A stretch of 43,749 nucleotides of DNA from a virus: IMG/VR virus record IMGVR_UViG_3300006844_000019, positions 1 to 43,749 of that record; one strand, given 5' to 3'. Positions 36,099 through 41,361 of the stretch are shown piece by piece. Each line of letters begins with the position of its first letter. The stretch's first letter is position 1. The translations under genes and the position numbers were made by a program. The notes under the pieces were generated by a model, which was not told where the DNA came from, ran no database searches, and saw only the letters and a program-made list of their open reading frames with translations.

Positions 36099-36709
36099 TA
36101 GAGAACCTCATCAGCGAGGCCGAGTCGCACGGCCTCTTGTGCGGGGATGTAAGACTCGGCGTAGAGGAGACGTTTGACTTCGCCGAGGGTAATCATCGGG
36201 TTTTTCTTCTGCATCTTCTCCAAGTAGGTGCGCTCCATCAGTCGGCGGAGCCGCTGCGCTTCGTTGTGGGCCGAGGAGACGCGCTCCTCGCTGGCGTCGT
36301 CGATGGGGAGATCCCAGGAGCCGTAGTGGAGAAGGAGAGTTGCATTTGGGGACATGATCCGAGTGTCGGCAGCTTGGAGAATCCATGATCCCATAGAGAA
36401 AGCTGCGCCAAAAACGGTCGCGGTGACTTCGTGCGGAGAGGTCGCGATGGCGTCGTAGACGGCGAGGAAGTGGTACTCGTCGCCTCCCCAGTGGTTGAGG
36501 ATGATGCTGATGCCGGAGGAGGGGGTGACTTCGGCTTGGTTGAGCAGGTGCATCCCCTTGAGGAAGGTGGAAGCGGCCAAAGCGTCATCTGCATCCAAGT
36601 TTTCGGTCTCCGCGTTTCCGCAGAAGATGGTTCGGGAGGGGAGGTGGAGGTCGAATTCGTAGAAGAGGCTGCTGTCATCGTTCGCTTTCCGCTGAACTCG
36701 GGTGCTCAT
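36098..36709 (-). CDS. ClpP-like serine protease
   Basis: A 203-residue ClpP/crotonase-fold peptidase. The nucleophile is S105 in GAAFSMGSW and the general base H128 in LLLHYGSW. The end AQEAVRLGLADEVL matches the ClpP C-terminal block. Aligned from that block, the catalytic Asp position is E185 (LLYAESYIP). ClpP-like proteases serve as prohead proteases in many phages; here the gene is second in the late operon, far from scaffold and capsid. It overlaps the upstream gene by 35 bases. Confidence 0.85.
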   Translation of the reverse strand: MSTRVQRKANDDSSLFYEFDLHLPSRTIFCGNAETENLDADDALAASTFLKGMHLLNQAEVTPSSGISIILNHWGGDEYHFLAVYDAIATSPHEVTATVFGAAFSMGSWILQAADTRIMSPNATLLLHYGSWDLPIDDASEERVSSAHNEAQRLRRLMERTYLEKMQKKNPMITLGEVKRLLYAESYIPAQEAVRLGLADEVL

Positions 36710-37430
36710 CGGGTTCCTTCGGGATGGTTGTGGAGGTGGGAGTTGAACCCACGATCTCCGGCGTATCAGGCCGTTGCTCTACCAACTGAGCTACTCCACG
36801 GGGTGGAGAGGAGGAGTCTGCGGGTTGAATAGAGCCCTCGGTGGCGACTTGCGGATGTGTGGCTTTCAACCGGCTCAACTCCTCCTCAAACGTGGGGAGA
36901 AAGTCTGGGAGTTGCCGCCCGATGGCGGCGACTGTAAGTGCTGGACCTACCACGTCAAGGATGTCGGCAGTCCGCACGATGAGGTCTTCCTCAGTCAACG
37001 GCGGGCCGGGGCCGAGTTTTTCGGTGACGCTGCGGGCCTCGATTTTGTCGTGCGCGAGGATAGCGTCACGGAGGAGGCTCAAATTGTTGTTGGCGGCCGC
37101 CTTTCGGGCCGACCCGGCAAGCATGGAGAGCTTTTCCTCTTGGGTGAGGGGCTCATTGTGGAGCCCGCGCATCTTCTCAAGCTCTTTGACGATGACTTCC
37201 GCGCCTTCGGTGGTCACTTCGGGGGCTTCGGTCTGATGGTCGTAGTAGGAGGGCTGGAGGAGGCCCTTCTTGATGCCGTCGGAGCGGACCCTCGATATGG
37301 TGCGCTCGGAGACCCCAAAATAGGCCGCTACAGTGGCATTTGTGGCCTCAGCGTGGGTCAGGAGGTACTCCTCTATGCGCTGGCGGCGTTTGATGGTGGG
37401 GGCCGGGTTTTTCGAGGCGTTTTCGGACAT
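36675..37430 (-). CDS. HTH DNA-binding protein, terminase small subunit candidate
   Basis: A 251-residue protein, first gene of the late operon. A helix-turn-helix lies at about 28-50 (TNATVAAYFGVSERTISRVRSDG), then an acidic helical region (LTQEEKLSMLAGSARKAAANNN, LTEEDLIVRTADILD). This layout fits a small terminase subunit; a late regulator is the alternative. Residues 211-236 are the translation of a complete tRNA gene on the same strand (GVAQLVEQRP... is the usual reading of a tRNA), with 15 more residues before the stop. So the frame is genuinely open through the tRNA. No clear Shine-Dalgarno is seen. Confidence 0.65.
   Translation of the reverse strand: MSENASKNPAPTIKRRQRIEEYLLTHAEATNATVAAYFGVSERTISRVRSDGIKKGLLQPSYYDHQTEAPEVTTEGAEVIVKELEKMRGLHNEPLTQEEKLSMLAGSARKAAANNNLSLLRDAILAHDKIEARSVTEKLGPGPPLTEEDLIVRTADILDVVGPALTVAAIGRQLPDFLPTFEEELSRLKATHPQVATEGSIQPADSSSPPRGVAQLVEQRPDTPEIVGSTPTSTTIPKEPDEHPSSAESER
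36725..36800 (-). tRNA. tRNA-Ile (anticodon GAU) with encoded CCA
   Basis: A 76-base cloverleaf reads in full. D stem GCTC/GAGC with GTTGG loop, anticodon loop CTGATAC (anticodon GAT), T stem GTGGG/CCCAC with TTCAACT loop, discriminator A and an encoded CCA (36727-36725). Acceptor pairs 2-7 are perfect, but 1-72 is C-A, and 27-43 is A-G. C1-A72 is otherwise a mark of initiator tRNAs; the C11-G24 pair and GAU anticodon show this is an elongator. The gene lies wholly inside the preceding coding sequence. Confidence 0.9.
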
Positions 37431-38134: not shown

Positions 38135-38673
38135 TCGACTGCACAATCCTTGACGCGTACCGCGAGCACTACGCGCGCGCAACGCAAGAACAGCGCGCGC
38201 AGGGACGCGCGTGGTACCCCGATGCCACCGCTCTTTGCAAGAGCATCGCACAAGAGACGGGGTATCCATGGCAACGCATTGCTCTTGCCATGGCCGCTCT
38301 CTCTCCGCGCGCACGTTGGGAAGCGAACGTACGCGCAACGCGTGACGCGGCAAGCGGCCGCACCCCGCGCGTCCTGCGCACCAACGCATTAAAAGCCAGC
38401 GCATTGTTGGCAGGCGCGCGCGCGCATGATACGCTCTCTGGAATCAAGGTGCGGTCGTTCGCGGCCGCGATTCTAGGTTACAGGCATGCCGCGACAATTG
38501 ACGCATGGATGTTACGCGCTGCAGGCCATCCCGCACCCGCTAAAGCATCGGGGCAAGTCAAATACATACGCGCATGCAAACAAGCCCTAGCGCAATTGGC
38601 GCGCGAAGTCGGCGAGGATACGCGCGACCTACAAGCCATCGTCTGGATTGTCGCGAGAGGTAATCACTCATGA
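38131..38673 (+). CDS. Hypothetical protein with SPRxxWxxN motif
   Basis: A 180-residue basic helical protein. The pattern WYPDATALCKSIAQETG ... ALAMAALSPRARWEANVRAT ... IKVRSFAAAILG ... ATIDAWMLRAAG recurs in uncharacterised phage proteins; the spacing of helices with a late catalytic-looking Asp (TIDAW) recalls helix-hairpin-helix DNA glycosylases, but this is a weak resemblance. Strong CGCG bias in its codons. Confidence 0.6.
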   Translation: MIDCTILDAYREHYARATQEQRAQGRAWYPDATALCKSIAQETGYPWQRIALAMAALSPRARWEANVRATRDAASGRTPRVLRTNALKASALLAGARAHDTLSGIKVRSFAAAILGYRHAATIDAWMLRAAGHPAPAKASGQVKYIRACKQALAQLAREVGEDTRDLQAIVWIVARGNHS

Positions 38674-39167
38674 TAACCCGCAAGGAACGCAACGCAGCGG
38701 AATTCCTCCGCGCGATATCGGCCGCGAAACGCGCGCATCGGTACGGAGCGGCAGTCGAGATCAAAGATCCGGCGACCTACGCGACCGCGCGCCTCTTCCT
38801 AGCGCATGATGCGCTATCCGGTGCAGCCGTCACGCGCGAGGGCGACTTGATTAGCGTATTCCGTCACCCTGATAGCCCTACGCGCATCGACGCGATTCTA
38901 GCGCGCGCAACGCAATACGCGCGCACCCTAGATGCCTTTGACATTGGCGGAATGCTACCTCGCCTGTACGCGCGTTTCGGATTCCGCATTGTCGCGCGTA
39001 TGCATTTCGACCGCGCGTACGCCCCGCCCGACTGGGACTACACTCTTTTAGGCGAGCCCGATGTTGTGTTTATGGTGCGCGATTATGCCGTTGCCACGAG
39101 CACCCCGCCCGTGGTAACGTCATGGGACGCAGGAAAAGCGGCACAAGCGGCCGCATTGGAGGCATGA
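38670..39167 (+). CDS. GNAT-like acyltransferase-fold protein
   Basis: A 165-residue protein. DLISVFRHPD, then ARATQYARTLDAFDIGGMLPRLYARFGFRIVARMHFDRAYAPPDW and GEPDVVFMVRD follow the C-terminal half of GNAT-like folds (LY.k.GF..v.r motif) found in phage and polyvalent proteins. The usual acetyl-CoA R-x-x-G-x-G/A loop is not obvious, so activity is doubtful. Coupled to both neighbours (ATGA). Confidence 0.5.
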   Translation: MITRKERNAAEFLRAISAAKRAHRYGAAVEIKDPATYATARLFLAHDALSGAAVTREGDLISVFRHPDSPTRIDAILARATQYARTLDAFDIGGMLPRLYARFGFRIVARMHFDRAYAPPDWDYTLLGEPDVVFMVRDYAVATSTPPVVTSWDAGKAAQAAALEA

Positions 39168-39639: not shown

Positions 39640-39843
39640 ATGGCAACGACGAAGACCGTAGGCGAAGGCATCCAAGCGACCGTGGACGGGAAGACGCTCA
39701 CCCTCGTGATCGACCTTTCCCGCCCAGGCGAGCCCAGCGCATCAGGGAAGACCCTCGTCTTCGCATCGACGCGCGGGAATGTCACGATCACCACCGACGG
39801 TGGTCCTATCGTGCTAGGCCTGAACGCCTACCGCCGTCGCTAG
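39640..39843 (+). CDS. Small hypothetical protein upstream of the ribozyme
   Basis: A 67-residue beta-rich protein (GIQATVDGKTLTLVIDL, KTLVFASTRGNVTITTDGG). ATG at 39640 with AGGAGG upstream. Its TAG stop shares a base with stem II of the hammerhead ribozyme, so cleavage would leave this message with a defined 3' end 29 bases past the stop. Function unknown. Confidence 0.7.
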   Translation: MATTKTVGEGIQATVDGKTLTLVIDLSRPGEPSASGKTLVFASTRGNVTITTDGGPIVLGLNAYRRR

Positions 39844-39903
39844 GGGCGAAACGCGCGCCACGCGCGCGCGTACACCGGTAAAGCGCCGGTGCTGATGAGC
39901 CCC
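39843..39903 (+). ncRNA. Type II hammerhead ribozyme
   Basis: All conserved elements are in place. Stem II is GGGGC (39843-39847) with GCCCC (39899-39903), open-ended as in type II. GAA (39848-39850) leads to stem III, ACGCGCGC (39851-39858) with GCGCGCGT (39864-39871), whose A15.1-U16.1 pair is correct. The cleavage nucleotide H17 is A39872. Stem I is CACCGG (39873-39878) with CCGGTG (39886-39891), followed by CTGATGA (39892-39898). Predicted self-cleavage is after 39872. It would split the polycistronic message between the 67-residue gene and the SprT-like gene. Confidence 0.93.
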
Positions 39904-39925
39904 CTCCCACACAAGCGAGGACTCC

Positions 39926-40405
39926 ATGACCAAGGCTCAGATTGAACGCGAAGCGCGCCGTCTGCTGGACGAGAACGGCCTCACCGAGTGGCGGATCCGA
40001 TGGGCGGATCTCTCCCGCTCCGGTTGGCTAGGGCTCTATAACGCCGCGGGGCAAACGTGGTGGGACAAGCCCTACATCGACCTCTCGATCCCCTTTTTCG
40101 CCATTGCCACCGATGCCGAACAGCTTGACACGCTCCGGCACGAGGTAGCGCACGCCATCATGAATGTCGAAAACCCGATCCACCCCTTCCCCCAGTCCGC
40201 GCCAGAGCACATCATGCCGTGGGTGGGTCAAGGCGGACATGGCGTGATATGGGCGCATCTCGCGGCCGCGGCTGGCGCGAACCCCGAGCCCACGATCACC
40301 GATGTCACCCTCGACGCGCGTGTACGCCGTGAGGGCCTCATGCCCACCGAAGCCACGCACCAATTCATGCACCCTCGCCCAAAGCAGGAGGAAATCTGGT
40401 CATGA
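39926..40405 (+). CDS. SprT-like zinc metalloprotease
   Basis: A 159-residue protein with HEVAH at 72-76 (HExxH zinc site and catalytic Glu) and a downstream GHGVIWAHLAAAAG histidine as third ligand, the SprT pattern. PYIDLSIPFFA matches the strand before the active helix. SprT/Spartan family proteases act on DNA-associated proteins in eukaryotes; phage members are of unknown substrate. First gene after the ribozyme; GCGAGGA site upstream. Confidence 0.85.
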   Translation: MTKAQIEREARRLLDENGLTEWRIRWADLSRSGWLGLYNAAGQTWWDKPYIDLSIPFFAIATDAEQLDTLRHEVAHAIMNVENPIHPFPQSAPEHIMPWVGQGGHGVIWAHLAAAAGANPEPTITDVTLDARVRREGLMPTEATHQFMHPRPKQEEIWS

Positions 40406-41361
40406 CCCAGCACACGCATTGCGACCTCGGCATCATCGGCGCAGGACCCGCAGGCATCTCTACGGCGATCAATGCCGCCTCCGAAGGCCTCAAGGTCACC
40501 CTGATCGAAGGCCAGCCCATGATCGGCGGGCAAGCCCTGGCCTCGAAGGCCGTCGAAAACTACATGGGCTTTCCCGAAGGCCTCACCGGCGAGGATCTCT
40601 TCGCCCGCTCAAGCGCCCAGCTTGACAAGTTCGACGTTACCATCCTGAGCCCCGCCCATGTCGTCGATATCAACAAGGGCGAGCGCACCATCACCGCCGT
40701 CCTCGATGACGACACCGAGATCGAATGCCGTTCCCTCGCCCTCACGATGGGGCTGAGCCTCAACCGGCTCGAAGCAAAGGGCGTGGGCGCATTCCTCAAC
40801 CGCGGCGTGTCCTACGGCACGCCCGCCTTCCCCGCGGAAGGCCAGCGCATCATCGTGGTGGGCGGAGCGAACAGCGCCGGTCAAGCCGCCGTCTACCTCG
40901 CGACCGCGCGCGATGCCCACGTCACGATGCTGGTCCGCGGCAAGGGCATCGAAGACACCATGTCCTCATACCTCATCGAGCGCATCACCACCAACTCCCA
41001 CATCACGGTGCTCACCCACACGAACGTGCTCGAAGTGCAGGGCAACGGCCACATGCACAACGTCATCGTGCAGCATAGCGACGAGGAGCCCTACTCCCTC
41101 GACGCCGAGGCCATGTACATTTACATCGGCGGCCGCCCTCGCACCGCATGGCTCAACAAGAGCGGCGAAGTCACACGCACCGAGAAGGGCTTCATCGTCA
41201 CCGGCAAGAATCCCGTCCTCCCCTTCGAGACCTCGATGCCGGGCGTCTTCGCCGCAGGGGATGTACGCGAAGGCTCGATCAAGCGCGTGGCCTCCGCGGT
41301 AGGCGAGGGATCGGCCCTCGTCGCGCAGATCCACAAGTACCTCACCCCGAAAGGAGCCTAG
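40402..41361 (+). CDS. Thioredoxin-reductase-like flavoprotein lacking the CxxC
   Basis: A 319-residue FAD/NAD(P)H oxidoreductase. FAD motif IIGAGPAGIS (11-20), NADPH motif IIVVGGANSAGQAA (150-163) and C-terminal FAD motif FAAGDVREG are all present, and length is typical of thioredoxin reductase. But the redox site, normally SYCATCDGFF, reads SYGTPAFPAEG (137-147): both cysteines are missing (Gly139, Ala142). It therefore cannot pass electrons to thioredoxin in the normal way; it may be a ferredoxin/flavin reductase-like enzyme. Start overlaps the SprT stop. Confidence 0.85.
   Translation: MTQHTHCDLGIIGAGPAGISTAINAASEGLKVTLIEGQPMIGGQALASKAVENYMGFPEGLTGEDLFARSSAQLDKFDVTILSPAHVVDINKGERTITAVLDDDTEIECRSLALTMGLSLNRLEAKGVGAFLNRGVSYGTPAFPAEGQRIIVVGGANSAGQAAVYLATARDAHVTMLVRGKGIEDTMSSYLIERITTNSHITVLTHTNVLEVQGNGHMHNVIVQHSDEEPYSLDAEAMYIYIGGRPRTAWLNKSGEVTRTEKGFIVTGKNPVLPFETSMPGVFAAGDVREGSIKRVASAVGEGSALVAQIHKYLTPKGA

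Follow-up and report, generated by a model that had tools for sequence, protein, structure and literature searches.

A predicted type II hammerhead ribozyme overlapping a stop codon in a phage operon, and its place in a pseudoknot-free subtype

Genes and features of the locus

The window analysed here is the whole 43,749-nt stretch of IMG/VR virus record IMGVR_UViG_3300006844_000019, from an uncultured phage; features are on the (+) strand unless noted. An ORF of 67 aa (P0001; 39640–39843), with homologs in relatives, ends in a UAG stop (39841–39843) that overlaps by one base a candidate type II hammerhead ribozyme (39843–39903). Downstream, the sequence GAGG (39917–39920) is the likely Shine-Dalgarno element of a gene for a SprT-like metalloprotease with a HEVAH motif (39926–40405; PF10263, E=2.8e-5, just under the cut-off of that family), the first gene on the predicted 3' cleavage product. 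It is followed by a gene for a thioredoxin-reductase-like pyridine nucleotide-disulphide oxidoreductase (40402–41361; PF07992, Pyr_redox_2, E=6.2e-40). A first-pass annotation of this DNA had proposed both the SprT-like and the flavoprotein gene, and had the ribozyme begin on the last base of the stop codon and end 22 nt before the SprT ATG; the profile matches and the coordinates agree with it. Its designation of the operon as early is plausible and fits the position.

A tRNA gene (68 bits) is present at 36728–36800 (-), where it overlaps the 36675–37430 ORF at its 3' end. In Microbacterium phage Caron, a homolog of the protein encoded at 38670–39167 makes up the C-terminal part of the minor capsid protein, and in Limnohabitans phage DC33 one lies within a giant protein; the Streptomyces-phage homologs are annotated as 'acetyltransferase'. 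The protein is possibly an injected anti-defence domain.

Architecture of the ribozyme

Stem II (5 bp) is formed by 39843–39847 and 39899–39903. Between its strands lie the core GAA (39848–39850), the stem III hairpin (39851–39871; 8 bp between 39851–39858 and 39864–39871, including the A15.1-U16.1 pair, with a 5-nt loop), the stem I hairpin (39873–39891; six Watson-Crick pairs between 39873–39878 and 39886–39891, then U39879.G39885, with a 5-nt loop) and the core CUGAUGA (39892–39898). By sequence and descriptor, the invariant type II core is present (CUGANGA, GAA, A15.1-U16.1 and an H17 that is not G), and in the covariance alignment and the fold stems I and III are closed by loops and stem II is open-ended. 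Cleavage is predicted between 39872 and 39873, after H17 = A39872, from the core position and from the same GUA triplet in a relative (L219, below). The full core, the stems of 8, 6 and 5 bp, the type II assignment with an open stem II and a cut between the 67-aa and SprT-like genes had all been given in the first-pass annotation and were recovered here. Judged by its sequence, the element is a type II hammerhead and a further member of a known ribozyme class.

The predicted minimum-free-energy structure of the 61-mer coincides exactly with the hammerhead (-35.1 kcal/mol, z -3.1). Competing pairing appears in longer predicted folds: the probability of stem II is 0.3–0.5 in 140–230 nt, and near 0 in a 410-nt fold and in a fold of 39843–39960. 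In long-context folds, the upstream coding sequence is a predicted competitor for stem II.

Covariance search and chance controls

The Rfam model Hammerhead_II (RF02276) matched 39844–39908 (+) over its full length (1–66) with 30.6 bits. The E-value was 5.2e-6 when this record was searched and 0.0032 when the 6.35-kb stretch was run against all 4227 families. A run of this model had been proposed with the first-pass annotation; it did return a match, but one that scores under the gathering score of the family (37 bits). This cut-off is strict for phage members, because 5 of the 10 RF02276 matches in Streptomyces phage Caelum also fall below 37 bits, the lowest at 27.8.

A strict descriptor, which accepts only an exact core with each of the three stems, matched the window at this site only, and neither Rfam nor the descriptor found further hammerheads in the window. 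The descriptor gave one looser and no equally strong match in 200 shuffled windows, and none in reversed sequence totalling 1.14 Mb. That the motif resembles a hammerhead by chance, which is what the sub-gathering Rfam score would favour, is extremely improbable, given that 240 nt of local sequence, shuffled 20,000 times, produced no match and that an orthologous copy with covariation is found in L219.

Conservation in relatives

Relatives were collected with a terminase profile, and three further hammerheads were found among them, in L219, L166 and L204. L219, a contig of 57.4 kb, has a terminase 31% identical to that of the window; L215 represents this region in another assembly. In L219, the 67-aa protein has a homolog (48%) whose gene stops with TGA, and a type II hammerhead (L219:5230–5310) follows 10 nt on. 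This copy shares with the window the GUA triplet, which is rare (H17 = A in 6/224 surveyed hammerheads). Among the 19 stem pairs compared between these few sequences, five were changed on both sides and none on one side, and the core was kept; compensatory stem changes around a fixed core are the pattern that selection on catalysis would be expected to leave. The Rfam model misses the L219 hammerhead, probably because of its 29-nt loop III.

In L166 (terminase 48%), the hammerhead starts 2 nt after a TAG and lies upstream of an AAA ATPase gene (Rfam 35.1 bits, E=1.3e-7). In L204 (terminase 35%), a TAA is immediately followed by the hammerhead (L204:619–701), which lies 14 nt upstream of an ATG and is missed by Rfam. 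An Rfam search of 71 terminase-relative records gave a convincing match in L166 only; weak matches in the portal/terminase relatives L135–L137 and L240 (E 0.006–0.07) were not accepted as hammerheads. No GTDB genome matched the terminase profile. A single-sequence search of IMG/VR with the three flanking proteins returned no usable relatives save one homolog of the 67-aa protein (42%), which had no ribozyme.

Homologs of the 67-aa protein were found in L219/L215 (48%), L002 (42%), L170/L174 (36%) and L184 (41%). A ribozyme follows this gene only in the window and L219/L215, and none was found after it in L002, L170/L174 or L184. From these sequences, some lineages have retained the ribozyme, and others have lost or gained it. 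The first-pass annotation had stressed the SprT-like/flavoprotein pair. The conserved partner is instead the upstream 67-aa gene, because the L219/L215 ribozyme follows its homolog and no SprT or flavoprotein homologs were found in these contigs.

These observations bear on whether the main role of the ribozyme is to control SprT/flavoprotein expression by exposing or hiding the ribosome-binding site, as its position 22 nt upstream of the SprT ATG might suggest. We regard this as very unlikely: neither gene is kept beside the orthologous ribozyme, and the predicted unpairedness of 39914–39920 is 0.31 in the 3' product against 0.19–0.33 in uncleaved RNA (0.31–0.33 in three of four contexts). 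Unmasking of the Shine-Dalgarno element through cleavage was therefore given no support by folding.

Two minor features were seen in the relatives. At the 5' edge of the L219 ribozyme, GACC-ACGCAA-GGUC (L219:5307–5320 (-)) could form a hairpin competing for the 5' strand of stem II. Hammerheads with a long stem III loop occur at L204:619–701, at L219:5230–5310 and as leaders of DUF7178 genes in L009, L011, L023, L062, L083 and L088; they have a CUUCAGUG or CCUCAGUG stretch in common.

Hammerheads of Streptomyces phages

A pattern scan of viral contigs showed that type II hammerheads are common, occurring in at least 120 stretches, and several multi-copy loci belong to Streptomyces phages. Phages Diane, Hank144, Triumph, Puginator, Omar, Celia and Caelum (L158–L164) contain 8–10 type II hammerheads each, with 10 in Caelum by whole-record search. 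All 65 type II hammerheads of these seven phages are on the gene strand, 58 overlap annotated genes by at most 15 nt, and together they occupy most gaps of at least 50 nt in the right-arm operon. They end a median of 17 nt before the start codon (17 in the window), with predicted cleavage a median of 57 nt before it (53 in the window); part of this regularity arises because a ribosome-binding site has to fit into the same short gaps. Type I and type III hammerheads were not found at the seven loci, and the related Streptomyces phage Joe has no hammerheads.

The DUF7178 and 38670–39167 families, which neighbour the window ribozyme, both recur at Streptomyces-phage hammerhead loci, and an association of hammerheads with these genes was considered. 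It was rejected as a rule, and the two look like shared accessory genes, because no hammerheads were found in phage Joe or in mycobacteriophages and Gordonia and Rhodococcus phages that carry DUF7178 or SprT. In phage Omar, L162:12634–12751 (about 48633–48750 of the record) matches a piece of bacterial 16S rRNA in Rfam (68.4 bits, model positions 106–311).

A pseudoknot-free subtype

The majority of published type II motifs are able to pair loop I with the 3' tail as a pseudoknot, which is said to occur in only about 40% of all hammerheads (PMC3088659). The first-pass annotation was silent on the absence of this pseudoknot from the window, as on the sub-threshold Rfam score. A survey of 224 unique hammerheads recovered the pseudoknot (z=11.4), and the window fell in the lowest 8% for tail complementarity. 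Since only about 40% of hammerheads have it, the missing pseudoknot does not exclude type II membership. The IMG/VR part of the survey was seeded by a GC-rich pattern (GGC/GCC stem II and CUGAUGA), so proportions are not population frequencies.

The survey was divided by a rule made here, closure of a 3–5-nt loop I by G-C and then U.G, into groups of 38 and 186. Tail complementarity was strong in the group of 186 (z=12.1) and absent in that of 38 (z=0.7), in which stem I has 6 bp plus the U.G in all members and stem II has 4 bp in 37. The base directly 5' of stem II, which played no part in the grouping rule, is A in 36/36 scorable members of the U.G subtype versus 133/175 other type II hammerheads. 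The hammerheads of the window, L219, L166 and L204 all belong to the U.G pseudoknot-free group. The window has both U39879.G39885 and A39842, the second base of the UAG stop, and departs from the other 37 members, with their 4-bp stem II and 3–4-nt loop, in its 5-bp stem II and 5-nt loop.

A reverse-Hoogsteen pair has been described for types I and III hammerheads (PMC6155905). By analogy, the loop I U of the window probably contacts A39842, which would replace the usual pseudoknot as the contact between stems I and II. An alternative contact, of CGCU (39838–39841) with the loop I sequence AGCG (4 bp), was rejected as no better than chance (19% of shuffles), and pairing of the 5' flank was not enriched in the survey (z=-0.7).

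Overlap with stop codons

The stop-codon overlap noted in the first pass is present, and it is not a one-off. In 15/36 subtype members, the window included, an upstream stop codon overlaps stem II by one base and has the A 5' of stem II as its central base (13/29 groups after clustering; survey ORFs were called by open-frame length alone). The stop codon abuts stem II in four more members, and T is at -2 in 19/36 (binomial p=3e-4). In the open-access literature, no paper was found on such an overlap or on hammerheads in these Streptomyces phages.

This arrangement may, tentatively, reflect a translation-gated ribozyme, an added layer compatible with the processing function proposed below. A ribosome on the stop codon would hide stem II and A39842 and block cleavage, which would then wait for a ribosome-free message and so report on translation of the upstream gene. 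The recurrent overlap and abutment, the T at -2 and the invariance of the A agree with this, and translating ribosomes would also undo the pairing of upstream coding sequence with stem II seen in long folds. Genome compaction could equally account for the overlap, however, a UA(A/G) stop cheaply providing the needed A, and L219, L166 and others retain the A although their stop lies 2–10 nt upstream. Translation could thus either promote or block cleavage, because ribosomes would relieve the competing fold yet would cover stem II at the stop. Stated more generally, these phages might, with the same reservation, use a distinct pseudoknot-free type II subtype fused to the preceding stop codon, whose A would be the tertiary-contact base, so that ribosome and ribozyme would be mutually exclusive and translation would gate cleavage. 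If true, this would be a new way of coupling translation to mRNA cutting.

Proposed function

We consider it likely that a polycistronic phage message is processed here by a genuine type II hammerhead that cleaves in cis, its activity being predicted from the covariance match, the exact fold, the absence of comparable chance matches, the L219/L215 copy, the two further hammerheads of the subtype in L166 and L204 and a position like that in Streptomyces phages. On transcription of the operon the ribozyme would fold and cut between A39872 and C39873. This would leave the stem III hairpin and a 2',3'-cyclic phosphate at the 3' end of the upstream message. The 5' end of the downstream message, 53 nt before the SprT ATG, would carry a 5'-OH and the stem I hairpin. 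In types I and III hammerheads one of the two stems flanking the cut is open-ended; type II closes both, so each new end would carry a hairpin. Such ends may slow exonucleases as well as decay that depends on the 5' end, and may let the two messages have separate fates.

For tandem hammerheads of the phage type, cleavage has been published in vitro and, for one set, in E. coli (PMC3088659). Activity of the window ribozyme is made less certain by its sub-gathering score, missing pseudoknot, rare H17 = A and competing folds, by the 2011 finding that 4/18 hammerheads with a consensus match showed no activity when tested (PMC3088659), and by the lack of a detectable ribozyme in most 67-aa homologs and terminase relatives. 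The element might instead be a once-active or weak hammerhead without useful cleavage in the cell, its two hairpins merely stabilising or insulating the messages. The absent pseudoknot, the GUA triplet, the stem II and loop atypical for the subtype and the competition for stem II would all suit this reading, which is nonetheless rather unlikely, as the core is intact and the stem changes between the window and L219 are all compensatory.

Comparison with known systems

The first-pass annotation had held that hammerheads are known in phages and that the role of intergenic processing next to these genes appears open. The purpose is indeed open: in 2017 a review still gave the role of hammerheads in prokaryotes as open, and noted their link to phages (PMC6155905). 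The idea itself is older, since Perreault et al. described type II hammerheads, including tandem arrangements in prophages, and proposed phage operon processing with cleavage data in 2011 (PMC3088659). To the question of why phages have such numbers of hammerheads, open since that year, the present case adds an orthologous ribozyme that stays beside the same small gene in distant phages, a similar spacing from cut to start codon, and a subtype in which the key A is shared with a stop codon. The cultured Streptomyces phages, with their 8–10 copies each, bring in vivo tests within reach.

The window ribozyme shares with RF02276 type II hammerheads the core, the open-stem-II permutation, the intergenic phage site and the proposed mRNA processing, and differs from them in lacking the loop I/3'-tail pseudoknot, in having GUA rather than GUC, in its single copy and in its longer stem II (PMC3088659). 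The Streptomyces-phage clusters (Caelum, Diane, Hank144, Triumph, Omar, Celia and Puginator) resemble it in strand, gap filling and start-codon spacing, but comprise 8–10 copies where the window phage has one. HHphage of haloviruses HF1/HF2 likewise belongs to an early phage operon and lies just before a start codon; it was described as a variant hammerhead, whereas the window ribozyme has the consensus core (PMC3088659). Theta (HDV-like) ribozymes of gut phages are also self-cleaving and serve phage RNA processing, but they belong to another class and are tied to tRNAs, the window ribozyme to mRNAs (PMC10879173).
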